Translations under genes and position numbers: made by a program | The notes under the pieces: model-generated | Told to the model about the DNA's origin: nothing | Databases searched by the model: none | Seen by the model: only the letters and a program-made list of their open reading frames with translations | Part shown: positions 35,496 to 64,000 of the stretch, one piece after another | Position numbering within the stretch: the stretch's first letter is position 1 | Layout of the letters: every line of letters begins with the position of its first letter | Assembly (NCBI RefSeq): GCF_004168035.1 | Contig: NZ_SDPU01000032.1 | Location: 186,001-250,000, forward strand | Origin: Nocardioides iriomotensis | Lineage (GTDB): Bacteria > Actinomycetota > Actinomycetes > Propionibacteriales > Nocardioidaceae | Reading direction: 5' to 3' | Length of the DNA: 64,000 bases

Positions 35496-35725
35496 CCGCC
35501 GACCCGGCTCGAACCTCCCGCGCTGACCCGCCGACCCGGCTCGAACCTCCCGCCGGGAGGGCGCGAGTCGGCGCGTCTTGCCCTCGCAGACCCGTCGAGT
35601 CGGCGCGTCTTGCCCCTCGTCGCCCGTGCCGCCGACCGCCGTACGGGCGGCTCTTCCCTAGGCTCGTGGACGCTTCCCTAGGCGCAGGCGCCTTGTGAAG
35701 CGTCGATAACCCCGCGTTACAGCTG
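35496..35725 (+). repeat. Dispersed structured intergenic repeat, copy 1 (about 230 bp)
   Basis: Closely matches 63243-63473 in the same orientation. Parts in order: two tandem units beginning CCGCCGACCCGGCTCGAAC; a CTCCCG-C-CGGGAG hairpin; two units of CGAGTCGGCGCGTCTTG, which can pair back with the first pair; CGTCGCC and GCCGTACGGG blocks; a GACGCTTC...GAAGCGTC stem with a 20-nt loop (about 35669-35704); and the terminal CCCCGCGTTACAGCTG. It ends exactly 30 nt before the GTG at 35756. No plausible protein is encoded on either strand. Confidence 0.85.
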
Positions 35726-35755: not shown

Positions 35756-36343
35756 GTGCGCCTCCTGGTCGTCTTCGGTCCGCCGTCCGTCGGCAAGATG
35801 ACGGTCGGGCGGGCCGTGGCGGAACGCAGCGACTTCCGGCTGTTCCACAACCACGCCGTGATCGAGCCGCTGCTCGAGGTCTTCGAGTACGGCACGCCAC
35901 CGTTCATGCGGCTGCTCGGCGAGTGGCGCCGGCGGGTGATCGAGGAGGCGGCCGCGTCGGGCACCGACCTCCTGCTCACCTTCGTGTGGGGGCTGCAGCT
36001 CGAGTCCGACGTCCGTGAGATCACCGACTACCTCGCGCCGTACGTCGACCGTGGGGCGGAGGTCGCGTTCGTCGAGCTGTACGCCGACCTCCCGACGCGG
36101 CTGGAGCGCAACCGCACCGAGCACCGGCTCGTCGAGAAGCGGTCGAAGCGTGACGTGGCCTGGTCGGACGGCAACGTGCAGGAGATGGAGAGCCACACGA
36201 TGAGCACCGTGCCGGGAGGCGCGACGCCCGGCGAGCGGATGCTCGCCGGCTACCGACACCTCCGGCTCGACAACACGCTCCTGTCCGCCGAGGCCGCCGC
36301 CCAGCGGCTCCTGGCCTGGCTGGACGGCCACTTCCAGGCCTAG
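35756..36343 (+). CDS. P-loop NTPase, small-molecule kinase-like
   Basis: 195 residues. The P-loop FGPPSVGKMTVGR opens the protein, followed by FRLFHNHAVIEPLLEVF and a lid-like segment rich in Arg (DLPTRLERNRTEHRLVEKRSKRD). This pattern is shared by AAA/shikimate-kinase-like proteins of unknown substrate found widely in actinobacteria. GTG 35756 is preferred to a GTG six codons upstream because the P-loop strand starts at once. The last codons and stop lie in a 12-bp sequence repeated in the downstream palindrome, so the C-terminus may have been altered by that element. Confidence 0.8.
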   Translation: MRLLVVFGPPSVGKMTVGRAVAERSDFRLFHNHAVIEPLLEVFEYGTPPFMRLLGEWRRRVIEEAAASGTDLLLTFVWGLQLESDVREITDYLAPYVDRGAEVAFVELYADLPTRLERNRTEHRLVEKRSKRDVAWSDGNVQEMESHTMSTVPGGATPGERMLAGYRHLRLDNTLLSAEAAAQRLLAWLDGHFQA

Positions 36344-36408
36344 TCCTGCACTTCCAGGCCGTCGTAACAGCCTGGAAGTGCAGGGGTCCCTGGTGGACCA
36401 GGGACTCC
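36344..36408. repeat. Two-hairpin palindromic repeat, copy 1
   Basis: A perfect 15-bp stem (36345-36359 with 36370-36384, 10-nt loop) followed directly by a 9-bp stem (36386-36394 with 36397-36405). The reverse complement recurs at 50072-50133. It lies between converging genes, touching one stop codon and 9 nt from the other, so it can act as a bidirectional terminator. Confidence 0.8.
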
Positions 36409-36416
36409 GGCGGGCC

Positions 36417-50060: not shown

Positions 50061-50071
50061 GGGGCGTCGGA

Positions 50072-50133
50072 GTCCCTGGTGCACCAGGGACCCCTGCACT
50101 TCCAGGCCGACACAACACCCGGGAAGTGCAGGA
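50072..50133. repeat. Two-hairpin palindromic repeat, copy 2
   Basis: Reverse-oriented copy of 36344-36408. The short hairpin comes first as a perfect 20-nt palindrome (50072-50091), followed by the long one (50093-50106 with 50119-50132, one mismatch). Again between two converging genes, 11 nt after one stop and 18 nt before the other. Confidence 0.8.
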
Positions 50134-50150
50134 CTCGGCCTGGAAGCTCC

Positions 50151-51078: not shown

Positions 51079-52143
51079 TCAGCCGAGGCCGAGCGTGGCG
51101 CGGACCATGTTGTGGTCGGAGGGGATGGTGCCGTTGACCTGCCACGTGCTGGGGTCCCACTGGGTGACGACCTTGTACTCGCGCACCGGCAGCCGGTTGT
51201 CCGCCCAGATCCAGTCGATGTTGTTGCCGACGCGGAACTGCTCGTTCCAGTAGCCGAACGAGCGCACGTCACGCTGGAACTTGTTGGCGGTGTTCATCCA
51301 GGCGTTCACGGTGGTCGCGGCGCGGGGGTGGGCGATCCTGGTGACGCGGTACTGCTGGTTGAGCACGTCGCCGTAGCCGGCCTGCTTCATCCGCGGCAGG
51401 AAGCGCTTCGCCATCGGCGAGAACTTGTGGGTGTTGAAATCACCGGTGGCGACGACCGGCCGGCCCTTCTTCAGGTCGTTGATCTTCCTGATCATCTCGC
51501 GCCACTGCTTGGAGCGGACCTTGCCGTGCTTGGGGTCGAGGTGCGTGGTGGTGAAGAGGAACTCGGCGCCGTTGACGTTGGACCGCAGCACCGCCCAGGC
51601 CATGTGGGCGGGGCTGTCCTTGCCCACCTGCGCGGCGTACTTCAGCTTTCCCTGCTTGACGAGCGTGATCGTCTGCGTGTTGTAGAGGATCCGGTCGCTC
51701 TGCGAGGCGCCCCGGTTCTTCTTCTTGCAGTGGTGCTGCGTGCTCGGCCTCTTGCAGTTGAACGCGTAGCGGTTGGTCAGCGCGAACGTCCCGCCCGCCT
51801 TGTTCAGGCCGTTGCGCAGGTCGAGGAACTGGTTGCGCCCGTCGACCAGGCGCGAGGCGAACGCCTTGCTCGGGTTGACCTCCTGGACGCCGATGACGTC
51901 GACGCTCTCGCTGAGGATGTTCGCGATCACCATCCCCCGTCGCTCGCGCCAGGGGCGGATCTCACCGGCGGTCTGGTCCAGGCTGACGCTGCGGACGTTG
52001 TACGACGCCACCCGGAGGTCGACGGAGGCCTGACGAGCCTCGGCGGCGGCCGGCTCCCCCGCGGCCGGCGACGCCAGCAGGGCGGTGGGGACGAGAAGGG
52101 ACAGAGCGGTCAAGGACGTGACGATCAACCCGACGGTGCGCAT
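51079..52143 (-). CDS. Secreted endonuclease/exonuclease/phosphatase-family protein, copy A
   Basis: 354 residues. Signal peptide (about 1-27, ending in Ala-rich ASPAAGEPAAA), then an EEP fold: VASYNVRSVS, GVQEVNP (metal Glu), TTTHLDP, VVATGDFNTHK and SDHNMVRATLGL (final Asp-His). Acts outside the cell on nucleic acid, phospholipid or phosphate esters; substrate not known. About half to two thirds identical to the next gene, from which it is separated by 163 nt. A 7-bp inverted repeat (52173-52187) lies just upstream of the start. Confidence 0.88.
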   Translation of the reverse strand: MRTVGLIVTSLTALSLLVPTALLASPAAGEPAAAEARQASVDLRVASYNVRSVSLDQTAGEIRPWRERRGMVIANILSESVDVIGVQEVNPSKAFASRLVDGRNQFLDLRNGLNKAGGTFALTNRYAFNCKRPSTQHHCKKKNRGASQSDRILYNTQTITLVKQGKLKYAAQVGKDSPAHMAWAVLRSNVNGAEFLFTTTHLDPKHGKVRSKQWREMIRKINDLKKGRPVVATGDFNTHKFSPMAKRFLPRMKQAGYGDVLNQQYRVTRIAHPRAATTVNAWMNTANKFQRDVRSFGYWNEQFRVGNNIDWIWADNRLPVREYKVVTQWDPSTWQVNGTIPSDHNMVRATLGLG

Positions 52144-52306: not shown

Positions 52307-53377
52307 TCAGGGGAGCGTGAGCGTGGCGCGGACCATGTTGTGGTTGGAGGGGATGACGCCCGTGAGCTTCCAGGAGCTCGGGTCGTAGTTGACGACCGTC
52401 TTGTACTCCACGACCGGCAGCTCGTTGCTGGCGAAGATCCAGTCGATGCTGTTGCCGGCCCGGAACTGCTCGTTCCAGTAGCTGAAGTCGCGGACGTCGC
52501 GCTGCAGCTTGTTCACCGAGCTGATCCAGCCGTTGACCACGTTCCGCGCCCGCGGCTGGTCGATCTTGGTGACGTAGGGCTGCTGGTTGAGCACGTCTCC
52601 GTACCCGTTGGCCTTCATCGCGGGGATGAACCGGGCGCCCAGCGACGACATCTTGTGGGTGTTGAAGTCACCGGTGACGACCACGGGCAGCGTGCCCCTC
52701 AGGCTGTTCACCTTGGCGATCAGCTCGTCCCACTGCGCCGCCCGGACGCTCTCGTCCTTGGGCTCGAGGTGGGTGGTCACGAAGAGGAACTGGCTGCCGG
52801 TGGCGAGGCTGCTCAGCACCGCCCAGCCGAGGTGGGCGGGGCTGGTGCCGGACCGCTGCGCGCGGTACTGGTAGGCGCCCTGCGACACCATCGAGAGGGT
52901 GCGCTTGTTGTAGTAGATCCGGTCGCTGTGCGAGGAGCCGCGGTCCACCTTCACGCACTTGTACTGGGTGCGCGCCTTCTTGCAGTTGTAGGACTTGCTG
53001 TTGGTGAGGGCGTACCAGCCACCGTGGCTGTTGAGGCCCTTGAGCAGGTCCTGGAACTGCGTCTTGCCGGCCACCAGGCGCGACTTGTAGACCCGGCTCG
53101 GGTTGAGCTCCTGCACGCCGACCACGTCGACGCCCTCGCCGAGGATGTTCGCGACGACGGCGTCGCGCCGCTCCCGCCACGGCCGGAACTCGCCCTGGGC
53201 CTTGTCCAGGCTCACGTTGGTGACGTTGTACGACGCCACCCGGACGTCGACCGGCATCTTGGCCGCGGCGGCGGCCCGGTCGGCCGGCCCGACGGTCACG
53301 GTGAGCCCGGCGGCCACGGCGAGTGCCGCGACGGCGGCGACCCCGCGGGCAAGACGGTTCGTTCGACCCTTGAGCAT
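52307..53377 (-). CDS. Secreted endonuclease/exonuclease/phosphatase-family protein, copy B
   Basis: 356 residues, tandem paralogue of the downstream gene. Signal peptide about 1-38, then VASYNVTNVS, GVQELNPSRVY, TTHLEPK, VVVTGDFNTHK and SNHNMVRATLTLP. The final SDHNM of copy A is SNHNM here: the usual catalytic Asp is replaced by Asn, which may weaken or change activity. Two paired Cys (YNCKKARTQYKC) are shared with copy A. GGAGG nine nt before ATG 53377. Ends with its own terminator, so each copy can be separately regulated. Confidence 0.87.
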   Translation of the reverse strand: MLKGRTNRLARGVAAVAALAVAAGLTVTVGPADRAAAAAKMPVDVRVASYNVTNVSLDKAQGEFRPWRERRDAVVANILGEGVDVVGVQELNPSRVYKSRLVAGKTQFQDLLKGLNSHGGWYALTNSKSYNCKKARTQYKCVKVDRGSSHSDRIYYNKRTLSMVSQGAYQYRAQRSGTSPAHLGWAVLSSLATGSQFLFVTTHLEPKDESVRAAQWDELIAKVNSLRGTLPVVVTGDFNTHKMSSLGARFIPAMKANGYGDVLNQQPYVTKIDQPRARNVVNGWISSVNKLQRDVRDFSYWNEQFRAGNSIDWIFASNELPVVEYKTVVNYDPSSWKLTGVIPSNHNMVRATLTLP

Positions 53378-60410: not shown

Positions 60411-62306
60411 TTGTTCGACTCAGTGCTCGTCGCCAATCGCGGCGAGATCGCCCTCCGGGTCATCCGCACCTGCCGCCGCCTCGGCGTGCGCAGCGTCGCG
60501 CTGTTCACCGACCTCGACGCGTCCGCGCCGCACGTCCGGGAGGCCGACGACGCGGTCCGGGTGCCGTCGTACCTCGACGTCGACGCGGTCGTGCAGGCCG
60601 CCGTCGACACCGGCGCCCAGGCCGTGCACCCCGGCTACGGTTTCCTCTCCGAGCGTGCGCCGTTCGCCCGCGCGCTCGACAAGGCGGGCATCGCGCTCGT
60701 CGGCCCGACCGCCGACGTGATGGACGCGATGGGCCGCAAGGACGCGGCCCGCGAGGTCGCCGTCGCCGCCGGTGTCCCCGTGGTGCCCCAGGGGGACCAG
60801 GCGTCGTTCCCGATCCTGGTCAAGGCCGCCGCCGGCGGCGGCGGCAAGGGCATGCGGATCGTGCGGTCCGCCGAGGAGTACGACGAGGCGGTCGCCGCGG
60901 CCAAGCGCGAGGCGGCGTCGGCATTCGGTGACGACAAGATGCTCGTCGAGAAGTACGTCGAGCGCGGCCGGCACATCGAGGTGCAGGTGCTCGCGGACAC
61001 GCACGGCACGGTCCTGCACCTGTTCGAGCGCGACTGCTCCACGCAGCGCCGGCACCAGAAGGTGCTGGAGGAGGCGCCCGCCCCGACCATCGACGCCGCC
61101 CAGCGCGCGGCGATCACCTCGGCGGCCGTCTCCCTCGCGCGCGAGGTCGGCTACACCAACGCCGGCACCGTCGAGTTCCTCCTGGACGAGGCCACCGGCG
61201 AGTTCTACTTCCTGGAGATGAACACCCGCCTCCAGGTCGAGCACCCCGTCACCGAGCTCGTGTCCCTGGTCGGCGGCCGCAGCCTCGACCTCGTCGAGCA
61301 CCAGCTGCGGGTCGCGGCCGGCGAGCCGCTGTCGTTCGCCCAGAACGACGTGGTGCTCACCGGGCACGCGATCGAGGCCCGGGTCTACGCCGAGGACTCC
61401 TTCGGCGGCTTCCTCCCGCAGGCCGGCCGCGCCGAGATCGTGCGCTGGCCGGACCGCCATGGCCACGCCCGCGTCGACCACGCCCTCGAGGACGGCCAGG
61501 TCGTGTCGACGGCGTACGACCCGATGCTCGGCAAGGTGATCGTGCACGGCGAGACCCGCGAGGCGGCGCGGCAGGCGCTGGTCCGGGCGCTCGACGAGAC
61601 CGCGGTGCTCGGCCTCACCACCAACACCGGCTTCCTGCGCGCGCTGGTCGCGAGCGACGAGTTCCGCGACGCCACGATCCACACCGCCTGGCTGGACACC
61701 GCCACGGTCGAGCCGCCGACCGACGACGTCGCCCGCACGATCGCCGCGTGGGTCGACGGCGCCGTGCTCACCGGCGGCGACCCGCACCCGTTCCAGCTCG
61801 ACGGCTGGCGGCACGGCGGCACCCCCGCCCCGGTCGTGATCGACCTGGACCGTCCCGTCGAGGTCGTCCGCGAGGGCGGCGGCCGCGGCACGGTCGACGG
61901 CGTCCGGGTCGCCCAGGTCTCGGCCGAGCAGCACGAGGTCGTCGCCTTCGTCGACGGCACCCGGCAGACCGCCGTCGTGAACAGCGGCGTCCACGGCGTC
62001 GAGGTCGTGCACCGGGGGCAGCGCTTCGTGTTCACCCGGCCCGACCCGTTCGCCGACCCCGTCGACACCGCCGGCGACGGCACCCTGGTCGCGCCGATGC
62101 CCGGCACCGTGCTCGACGTCCGGGTCGCCGAGGGCCAGCAGGTCGCCGAGGGCGACGTGCTCGGCGTGATGGAGGCGATGAAGATGGAGCTGTCGCTCAA
62201 GGCACCGCTCGCCGGCACCGTGACGACCGTCGGCGCCGCCGCGGGCGAGCAGGTCGCCCTGGGTGCGGTCCTGTTCGTCGTGGAGGGAGACACCGTCGAT
62301 GCGTAG
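60411..62306 (+). CDS. mccA: 3-Methylcrotonyl-CoA carboxylase, biotin carboxylase/carrier (alpha) subunit
   Basis: 631 residues. Biotin carboxylase domain (FDSVLVANRGEIALRVIRTC; ATP-grasp KAAAGGGGKGMRIV; EMNTRLQVEHPVTE), a middle linker domain, and a biotinyl-lipoyl carrier at the C-terminus with VMEAMKMELS, whose Lys is biotinylated. TTG start at 60411 with AAGGGGA upstream, overlapping the mccB stop region. Pairs with MccB. Start of 62299 hmgL overlaps its end by 8 bp. Confidence 0.93.
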   Translation: MFDSVLVANRGEIALRVIRTCRRLGVRSVALFTDLDASAPHVREADDAVRVPSYLDVDAVVQAAVDTGAQAVHPGYGFLSERAPFARALDKAGIALVGPTADVMDAMGRKDAAREVAVAAGVPVVPQGDQASFPILVKAAAGGGGKGMRIVRSAEEYDEAVAAAKREAASAFGDDKMLVEKYVERGRHIEVQVLADTHGTVLHLFERDCSTQRRHQKVLEEAPAPTIDAAQRAAITSAAVSLAREVGYTNAGTVEFLLDEATGEFYFLEMNTRLQVEHPVTELVSLVGGRSLDLVEHQLRVAAGEPLSFAQNDVVLTGHAIEARVYAEDSFGGFLPQAGRAEIVRWPDRHGHARVDHALEDGQVVSTAYDPMLGKVIVHGETREAARQALVRALDETAVLGLTTNTGFLRALVASDEFRDATIHTAWLDTATVEPPTDDVARTIAAWVDGAVLTGGDPHPFQLDGWRHGGTPAPVVIDLDRPVEVVREGGGRGTVDGVRVAQVSAEQHEVVAFVDGTRQTAVVNSGVHGVEVVHRGQRFVFTRPDPFADPVDTAGDGTLVAPMPGTVLDVRVAEGQQVAEGDVLGVMEAMKMELSLKAPLAGTVTTVGAAAGEQVALGAVLFVVEGDTVDA

Positions 62307-63237
62307 CCCGCAGCTGGTCCGCGACCCGTCGCTGCCCGAGCGGGTCACGATCTACGAGGTCGGCCCCCGCGACGGCCTGCAGAACGAGTCGACCGTCGTG
62401 CCCGTGGAGACCAAAGCGGCGTTCGTGAAGCGGCTCGTCGCCGCCGGGCTCCCGGTCGTGGAGGCCACGTCGTTCGTGCACCCGAAGTGGGTGCCGCAGC
62501 TGGCCGACGCCGCCGAGCTCCTGGACCTGCTCGTCGCCGACCTCGGCGACACCGCCCGCGAGATGCCGGTGCTCGTGCCCAACGAGCGCGGCTTGGACCG
62601 GGCGCTGGAGAAGGGCTCGCGGCACGTCGCGATCTTCGGCAGCGCCACCGAGACGTTCGCGCAGCGCAACCTCAACCGTTCGCTCGACGACCAGTTCACG
62701 ATGTTCGAGCCGACCGTCGCCCGGGCGCGCGAGGCCGGGCTCGACGTCCGGGCGTACGTGTCGATGTGCTTCGGCGACCCCTGGGAGGGCGACGTACCCG
62801 TCGAGCAGGTGGTCGCCGTCGGCAAGCGGCTCTTCGACCTCGGCGCCTCGCAGCTCTCGCTCGGCGACACCATCGGGGTCGGCACGCCCGGCCACGTGGT
62901 CGCGCTGCTCGACGCGCTCAACACCGCCGGCCTCGGCGACGACGTGCTCGCCATGCACTTCCACGACACCTACGGCCAGGCGCTCTCCAACGCCGCCGCC
63001 GCGCTGCGCCACGGCGTCACGACGTTCGACGCCTCGGCCGGTGGCCTGGGCGGCTGCCCGTACGCCGAGAGCGCGACCGGCAACCTGGCCACCGAGGACC
63101 TGGTCTGGATGCTGCACGGCCTGGGGATCGAGACCGGCGTGGACCTGGACGGCCTGGTCGCGACGAGCGTCTGGATGGCCGGCGAGCTGGGCCGGCCCAG
63201 CCCGTCCCGGGTGGTCCAGGCGCTGGCCGGCTCCTAG
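62299..63237 (+). CDS. Hydroxymethylglutaryl-CoA lyase
   Basis: 312 residues. Cleaves HMG-CoA to acetyl-CoA and acetoacetate, the last step of leucine catabolism. TIM barrel with VGPRDGLQNE (metal Asp), EATSFVHPKWVPQLAD, the metal-binding HFHDTYG, and GGLGGCPYAESATGN with the catalytic Cys. ATG 62299 lies inside the end of mccA. The intervening methylglutaconyl-CoA hydratase and isovaleryl-CoA dehydrogenase are not in the window. Confidence 0.95.
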   Translation: MRSPQLVRDPSLPERVTIYEVGPRDGLQNESTVVPVETKAAFVKRLVAAGLPVVEATSFVHPKWVPQLADAAELLDLLVADLGDTAREMPVLVPNERGLDRALEKGSRHVAIFGSATETFAQRNLNRSLDDQFTMFEPTVARAREAGLDVRAYVSMCFGDPWEGDVPVEQVVAVGKRLFDLGASQLSLGDTIGVGTPGHVVALLDALNTAGLGDDVLAMHFHDTYGQALSNAAAALRHGVTTFDASAGGLGGCPYAESATGNLATEDLVWMLHGLGIETGVDLDGLVATSVWMAGELGRPSPSRVVQALAGS

Positions 63238-63242
63238 CGGTC

Positions 63243-63473
63243 CCGCCGACCCGGCTCGAACCTCCCGCCCTGATCCGCCGACCCGGCTCGAACCTCCCGC
63301 CGGGAGTGCGCGAGTCGGCGCGTCCTGCCCTCGCGGAGGTGCCGAGTCGGCGCGTCCTGCCCCTCGTCGCCCGGCCGCGCCGGTCGCCGTACGGGAGGCT
63401 CTTCCCCAGGCGTCTGGACGCTTCCCACGCGGAATGCGCCTTGTGGAGCGTCCCTAACCCCGCGTTACAGCTG
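63243..63473 (+). repeat. Dispersed structured intergenic repeat, copy 2 (about 231 bp)
   Basis: Same parts in the same order as 35496-35725: two CCGCCGACCCGGCTCGAAC units, the CTCCCG-C-CGGGAG hairpin, two CGAGTCGGCGCGTCCTG units, GTCGCCGTACGG, GGACGCTTC...GGAGCGTCC stem and CCCCGCGTTACAGCTG. Ends exactly 30 nt before the ATG at 63504. Begins 5 nt after the hmgL stop. Confidence 0.85.
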
Positions 63474-63503: not shown

Positions 63504-64000
63504 ATGACTCGTCGCGTGTACCTGCATGTCGGGGCGCCGAAGACGGGCACGACGTACCTCCAGGACCGGCTCGCGGCCAACCGCACCGAGCTCGCCCGCC
63601 ACGACGTGCACTACCCGCTCGGCCTCCAGGCCAGCCACTTCAAGGCGGCCCTGGACCTCCTCGACGACGTCTCCTGGGGCGGCCAGCGGGAGGACGCGCG
63701 GGGCGAGTGGGACAAGCTCGTCGACCGGGTACGGCGCCACGACGGCACGGTGATCGTCTCCCACGAGATCCTCGCGGGCGCGAAGCCGGAGCAGGTCCGC
63801 AAGGCGATGGCCGACCTCGCCGGCGACGAGGTGCACCTGGTCTACTCCGCCCGCGACCTGGCCCGGCAGATCCCGGCCGAGTGGCAGGAGGGCATCAAGC
63901 ACCGGCGGCGCCGGTCGTTCGCCCGGTTCCTCACCCAGGTGCAGTCGGCCCGGCGGCGCAACCCGTCGATGTGGTTCTGGAAGGCGCAGGGCCTCCCCGA
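63504..64000 (+). CDS. Sulfotransferase-like protein, N-terminal part (runs off the window)
   Basis: 165 residues visible. The N-terminal VYLHVGAPKTGTTYLQDRL is the 5'-phosphosulfate (PAPS) loop of sulfotransferases, and the 3'-phosphate-binding region may be VHLVYSARDLARQIPAEWQE (about 110-129). Acceptor unknown. Codon use is like the neighbours. Downstream of the second large repeat; no ribosome site, leaderless-type start. Confidence 0.8.
   Translation, partial: MTRRVYLHVGAPKTGTTYLQDRLAANRTELARHDVHYPLGLQASHFKAALDLLDDVSWGGQREDARGEWDKLVDRVRRHDGTVIVSHEILAGAKPEQVRKAMADLAGDEVHLVYSARDLARQIPAEWQEGIKHRRRRSFARFLTQVQSARRRNPSMWFWKAQGLP

Follow-up and report, generated by a model that had tools for sequence, protein, structure and literature searches.

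A composite dispersed repeat of Nocardioides iriomotensis and a predicted AbiEi-like partner gene in a possible REPIN-RAYT-like arrangement

The 230-bp element described here is a composite, gene-less repeat that is dispersed over the genome of its host, Nocardioides iriomotensis. Judged from sequence, the family of its terminal arm (module C) also stands as inverted copies on both sides of a chromosomal gene whose predicted protein is AbiEi-like at its N-terminus and restriction-endonuclease-like (DUF559/MTES_1575) at its C-terminus, and its A units bracket the gene of a second predicted paralog. In the host, each flanked paralog has one repeat family. We consider it probable that the gene-less composite repeat and the AbiEi-like, nuclease-like protein are partners in an arrangement like that of REPINs and RAYTs, in which the protein would mobilise the repeats.

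Results

The analysed window of 64,000 nucleotides holds two copies of the element (Table 1). They lie on the same strand and are 87% identical over their full length, and, as an earlier note on this DNA had seen, they contain duplicated sub-units, two A and two B units per copy with a period of 32 bp. The likeness is more than chance: with the element as query, the host genome gave at least 60 matches at E ≤ 0.01 (40 of 174 initial candidates scored). The structure that the note had ascribed to the element is less well supported: the DNA of the entire element folds a little more stably than shuffled versions of it (z -1.39; 17 of 200 did as well), although a GGACGCTTC...GAAGCGTC-type stem is present in module C. 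Comparison with Rfam gave 0 family matches at the gathering score in the window. The names kinase-like and sulfotransferase-like for the two proteins encoded downstream were not borne out, neither having a Pfam match at E ≤ 0.01 (the second is cut by the window end).

Table 1. Positions of the two window copies and their modules, and host paralogs with flanking repeats
Feature	Position	Strand	Remarks
Composite repeat, copy 1 (A2-B2-C)	35496..35725	+	between minus-strand gene start 35476 and plus-strand gene start 35756
Module A of copy 1, two units CCGACCCGGCTCGAACCTCCCGC, 32-bp period	35499..35553 (35499-35521, 35531-35553)	+	43 units genome-wide, ≤3 mismatches
Module B of copy 1, two units CGAGTCGGCGCGTCTTGCCC	35564..35615 (35564-35583, 35596-35615)	+	74 units genome-wide, ≤3 mismatches; reversed control 2
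Module C of copy 1, hairpin and conserved terminal arm TAACCCCGCGTTACAGC	35644..35725	+	arm as in the inverted repeats around the predicted AbiEi-like nuclease gene
Most conserved end of module C, GCGTCNNNAACCCCGCGTTACAGC	35700..35723	+	perfect match at 29 of the 34 sites in the genome
Composite repeat, copy 2 (A2-B2-C)	63243..63473	+	an HMGL-like gene (62299-63237) stops before it, and the next plus-strand gene starts after it
Module A units of copy 2	63246..63300 (63246-63268, 63278-63300)	+	unit pattern scan
Module B units of copy 2	63311..63362 (63311-63330, 63343-63362)	+	unit pattern scan
Module C of copy 2	63392..63473	+	conserved end 63448-63471
Host paralog with module C repeats	C13		34 C ends dispersed
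Host paralog with A arrays	C21:114332		43 A units dispersed
Host paralog with L192-type repeat	C16:83105		4 further loci
Host paralog with L193-type repeat	C2:172239		9 further loci

Across the host genome (4.71 Mb in 47 contigs), a unit scan that tolerated up to three mismatches counted 43 units of A, 74 of B and 34 C ends, against 0, 2 and 0 for the reversed patterns. When neighbours on the same strand and less than 160 bp apart are joined, 54 clusters result: 18 of C, 14 of B, 10 of A-B-C, five of B-C, four of A, two of A-B and one of A-C. The order A-B-C is kept in all 18 multi-module clusters. The A and B units are related to each other (12 of 20 core positions alike, by our count), chimeric A/B units (CGACCCGGCGCGTCTTGCCC) occur at C18:5327 and C21:142839, and the unit arrays are one to five units long. 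The element DNA had no match in phage and plasmid DNA.

For the placement relative to genes, the note had argued for a fixed spacing. At the two window copies it is there: the last base of CAGCTG (35725 and 63473) is separated by 30 nt from a GTG at 35756 and an ATG at 63504, respectively. A codon-usage gene caller agrees on 35756, and at copy 2 it prefers the in-frame GTG at 63516, which gives a spacing of 42 nt. Run on 30 of the 34 C ends, the same caller put none of the 30 inside a called gene, although at four of them the last bases of the element overlap a convergent gene's stop. Downstream of 29 copies a gene was called: in 17 cases it is convergent, with its 3' end toward the copy, and in 12 its start codon lies 14-609 nt away. 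Distances and orientations vary over these 29 copies, which is the first of the two findings that the note itself had named as refuting it, and the claim of a fixed 30-nt spacing does not hold.

With the element left out, the joined flanks of copy 2 match several relatives straight through, and the element is absent from all four relatives that were aligned (G004, G001, G005 and G223). The gene after this site starts behind a short leader in all four; in G001 and G223 this leader resembles that of the host, in G004 the likeness is loose, and in G005 it is shorter. Since a short leader precedes the gene even where copy 2 is lacking, the 30-nt spacing is most likely a property of the downstream genes and not of the element. 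For copy 1, none of the matches listed spans the junction of the joined flanks. Among the roles that the note had offered, a promoter-carrying element or leader RNA is not borne out by these results (17 of 29 copies facing convergent 3' ends, starts at 14-609 nt, copy 2 absent from the four aligned relatives), and a mobile cassette is supported, with 34 dispersed C ends, 30 of 30 examined intergenic, and the same site empty in relatives.

Six outward-facing pairs of C ends within 1.3 kb occur in the host, against an expectation of about 0.3 pairs, whatever their orientation, for random placement. Among the six are two near-perfect palindromes of 74 bp (L124, L125) and one pair with a span of 231 bp; the other three enclose genes, namely that of a matrixin-like peptidase on C20, that of a small protein on C18 and that of a 329-aa protein at C13:128415-129401. 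The last gene, between inverted C ends, encodes the protein predicted to be AbiEi-like and restriction-endonuclease-like. ORF reading and Pfam found no transposase between the ends of two host pairs and of a pair in N. pocheonensis. The host has seven AbiEi-like paralogs, and inverted repeats flank four of them, with a different repeat family at each (54.5-103 bits); flanking repeats are absent at the other three (C2:5708, C5:44945, C13:541288).

The C arm belongs to the palindromic repeat family TGTAACGC...GCGTTACA, whose typical form elsewhere in the host's bacterial family is a 76-bp palindrome. A scan of genome contigs found the C arm in five stretches of three Nocardioides genomes as well, and in N. 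pocheonensis a homolog with 51% identity lies between two palindromes that stand 1.3 kb from each other. Over 32 palindromes, 65.4% of the inner-stem positions form Watson-Crick pairs vs. 57.8% in shuffles (sd 2.1; of 500 shuffles the best reached the observed figure and none exceeded it); pairing in the outer arms, which the search expression dictated, is given no weight.

We surveyed 294 genomes drawn evenly from a larger group, which we infer to be the Nocardioidaceae. The arm is present in 47 of them and in 3 of 26 genera (reversed-pattern control 0), as counted with one arm sequence, and genomes with other arm types score negative: G028 has no arm match, yet a related arm stands around its homolog. 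Nine palindrome pairs 1.19-1.30 kb apart were picked by spacing, among the places listed, before the intervening gene was seen. A homolog lies between the palindromes at all nine loci (the L190 protein equals the L144 protein).

By a profile built from ten such proteins, with seven candidates scored per genome, 206 of the 294 genomes have a homolog at E ≤ 1e-40. Among the best 30, which include the ten seeds, a flanking inverted repeat scored above all controls in 28, and in 18 of the 20 non-seeds; the exceptions are L221 and, close to the end of a contig, L227, and the weakest accepted repeat is that of L232 (38.3 bits). For lower-ranked homologs, picked before their flanks were seen, 14 of 20 were flanked above control, and at L290 and L299 of this set the flank motif is visible below the threshold. 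Combined, 32 of 40 non-seed homologs lie between inverted repeats above the best control and eight do not, the control being 205 positions of the host window only (best 34.6 bits) and some test flanks being slightly wider than the control geometry.

In 37 of the 42 flanked genes, 66-150 nt separate the end of the upstream repeat from the predicted start; in the other five the repeat comes nearer to the start or overlaps it. The first base of the downstream repeat falls between 54 nt ahead of the stop and 118 nt past it. The flank motif is mostly (T)GTAAC(G) with a clade-specific core, such as CCGGGTT, CGGGGTT, GCTGTT or GGTGTTA, among others.

At the level of genomes, 11 of the 13 non-seed genomes whose homolog reaches E ≤ 1e-130 have the palindrome vs. 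26 of the 271 other genomes, at a cut-off picked after inspection of the table. Six of the 47 repeat-bearing genomes (G121, G180, G240, G260, G274 and G275) have no homolog at E ≤ 1e-40 among the seven candidates scored per genome. G239 has 22 arm matches and a best homolog that is not flanked, G193 has 13 and a best homolog at only 5.6e-63, and G180 has seven; in these three the partner may have been lost, or another mover may be at work.

For the protein, 13 of 14 members have an AbiEi_4 (PF13338) N-terminus at E ≤ 1 (three of the six shown singly pass the cut-off), and 14 of 14 match the PADLOC AbiEi model at E ≤ 1. The C-terminus matches MTES_1575 in three and DUF559 in one of the 14, all below the cut-off. 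E211, E251, D253 and R281 are fully conserved and D242 is almost so, and the resulting E...D...ExDG pattern is presumably akin to that of the PD-(D/E)XK fold. An AlphaFold2 model from one sequence reached a pLDDT of 32.6, too poor for use of the fold, and a profile search of solved structures gave no meaningful match (best E 0.12). At the two loci examined there is no AbiEii toxin neighbour, the neighbours being FtsK_SpoIIIE and WXG100 at L122, and MFS and F_bP_aldolase at L144. Among the papers listed by searches of the open-licence PMC literature, none ties AbiEi or DUF559 proteins to palindromic repeats.

Regarding mobility, the joined flanks of seven G268 palindromes and four host copies were searched in 18 genomes, 12 with G268-type repeats and six of the host's genus. 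At the L243 site, the spacing of split matches places the palindrome in G220, G171, G068, G177 and G122, and no full palindrome is present in G245, G140, G142, G237 and G153. Half a palindrome is left in G245, G237 and G153, a state also compatible with deletion. At five further G268 sites some relative matches with no space left for the palindrome; four of these sites were aligned, with junctions too diverged to read. No target-site duplication was readable, the junctions being diverged or occupied by half a palindrome. At least 27 of the 30 top genes have flanks in common with others, at one or the other of two loci. For the most part the gene is passed on in place, and the repeats are polymorphic between relatives. 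The homolog has no match in phages or viral contigs and one weak match in plasmids.

A RAYT was also considered as the mover of the repeats and rejected: none of the 16 repeat-bearing genomes tested, out of 47, has the RAYT-type Y1 transposase (PF01797), and 5 of 14 control genomes do.

Discussion

In the arrangement that we propose, the AbiEi-like winged-helix domain would recognise the protein's own palindromic arm, and the PD-(D/E)XK-type domain would nick or cut this arm or its extruded hairpin. Repeats would be excised or copied into new intergenic sites, and gene-less copies would spread. An AbiEi-like nuclease would then occupy the place that the HUH transposase has in REPIN-RAYT systems. 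The related 32-bp A and B units may expand and shrink as tandem arrays; A, B and C may have fused into a compound element, and the host copies may be non-autonomous derivatives ending in the C arm.

We advance more tentatively a wider idea, for which the case is rather evenly balanced and leans slightly against: that fusions of AbiEi-like and restriction-endonuclease-like domains are a new actinobacterial class of dedicated repeat mobilisers, unrelated to HUH and DDE transposases. Each might read its own palindrome family through a TGTAACG-type arm, and many solitary 'AbiEi antitoxins' might be such movers.

To our knowledge, REPIN-RAYT is the best-described case of a chromosomal gene that lives with a population of short palindromes. 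The likeness lies in the short palindromic intergenic repeats that are polymorphic between relatives, in a dedicated gene of the chromosome that stands between copies of its own repeat (32 of 40 non-seed homologs), in paralogous genes of one genome with different repeats, and in a partner gene at conserved loci (at least 27 of 30 at two loci) with repeats present or absent at orthologous sites. The present case differs in the partner, which here is AbiEi-like with a restriction-endonuclease-like half, no Y1 (HUH) PF01797 being found in the 16 tested genomes, and in the arms, which begin GCTGTAACG and not GTAG. The 32 palindromes begin GCTGTAACGC, a start set by the search expression; flank repeats found independently of that expression mostly begin (T)GTAAC(G), and no GTAG-type tag appears. 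REPINs with a single-copy RAYT are the precedent (PMC3116915).

Other known systems share single traits. The CGTC-tagged REPs are palindromic repeats that lack a RAYT partner as well, but they have another tag and occur in other phyla; the main text of PMC3733652 does not contain the words Actinobacteria or Nocardioides, and its authors found no dedicated gene, whereas there is a candidate gene here. The AbiE type IV toxin-antitoxin system has the AbiEi_4-type N-terminal domain, and known AbiEi proteins bind inverted repeats (PMC7319586). Unlike that system, the genes studied here have no adjacent AbiEii (DUF1814) at the two loci examined, a restriction-endonuclease-like C-terminus and repeats on both sides. 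MITEs of insertion sequences have terminal inverted repeats and dispersed gene-less copies as here, but no transposase was recognised between the paired ends that we read.

If the proposal is right, a second, unrelated gene family in actinobacteria would have come to live with palindromes, and the gene-plus-palindrome arrangement would evolve repeatedly. It would also give solitary AbiEi-like proteins a function, and a new DNA-processing enzyme would become available whose recognition sites are specific to each paralog and easy to read. Both protein and substrate are predictable from sequence, so the idea is directly testable.

The strongest competitor, though in our view an unlikely one, sees the palindromes as binding sites of an AbiEi-like regulator: the upstream copy would be autoregulatory, and the dispersed copies, spread by ordinary duplication, would form a regulon or chromosome-organising sites. 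AbiEi and Rv2827c both repress their own promoters through inverted repeats, those of Rv2827c within -1 to -131 of the start (PMC7319586), and the 66-150 nt between upstream repeat and predicted start in 37 of 42 flanked genes would suit such a role. However, a matching copy also accompanies the stop codon (-54 to +118 nt), many of the host copies (17 of 29) point at the 3' end of a convergent gene, a regulator would need neither a 76-bp palindrome nor a nuclease-like domain, and such strong polymorphism of sites between species is not expected of it.

Improbable to a further degree is that these are ordinary MITE-like repeats moved by an unrelated transposase, with the AbiEi-like gene as a passenger caught between two copies. 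Inverted terminal repeats are indeed present, and host C pairs also flank the genes of the matrixin-like peptidase and the small protein. Yet the same gene family is bracketed by four repeat families in the host and by many clade-specific palindromes elsewhere, and a passenger would not be expected to recur, which disfavours this reading; the transposase search, of the Y1 type only, was negative in all 16 genomes tested. As for a leader RNA, a promoter-carrying element or a terminator at a fixed distance from start codons, the equal 30-nt spacing at both window copies is what it would predict, but the varied distances and orientations over 29 copies, the four relatives that lack copy 2 and start the gene after a short leader, the unexceptional folding and the lack of an Rfam match in the window leave it hardly credible. 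Against these alternatives, we favour mobilisation of the repeats by their AbiEi-like partner.

Further observations

Some observations concern other repeats and genes. C-type inverted ends lie around the peptidase gene at L123, ca. 1900-2941 (G000:C20:105901-106940), and around the small-protein gene at L028 (G000:C18:54818-55461); both genes are possibly carried cargo. At L124, operator-like CTTTGCAAA repeats stand between the palindrome and the following gene start (ca. 1229-1275).

In two Nocardioides genomes, a repeat stands just 3' of an apparent class-II fructose-bisphosphate aldolase gene (L144 5893-7208 and L146 7200-7330; Pfam-tested in L144 only). This is a shared, perhaps old, insertion site.

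For module B, no partner gene was found in the host. B units form inverted pairs close together at C16:26827-26940 and C21:142748-142858, and a further pair at C15:255215-256864 encloses a 500-aa ORF that is not AbiEi-like in appearance.

Within the window, positions 51079-52143 and 52307-53317 (both on the minus strand) are adjacent genes that look like tandem paralogs, with 300-nt direct repeats, 72-76% identical, at a spacing of 1228. A further palindromic repeat family of 82 nt is seen at 36331-36412 (+) and 50065-50146 (-), with 88% identity and 12 loci in the genome.
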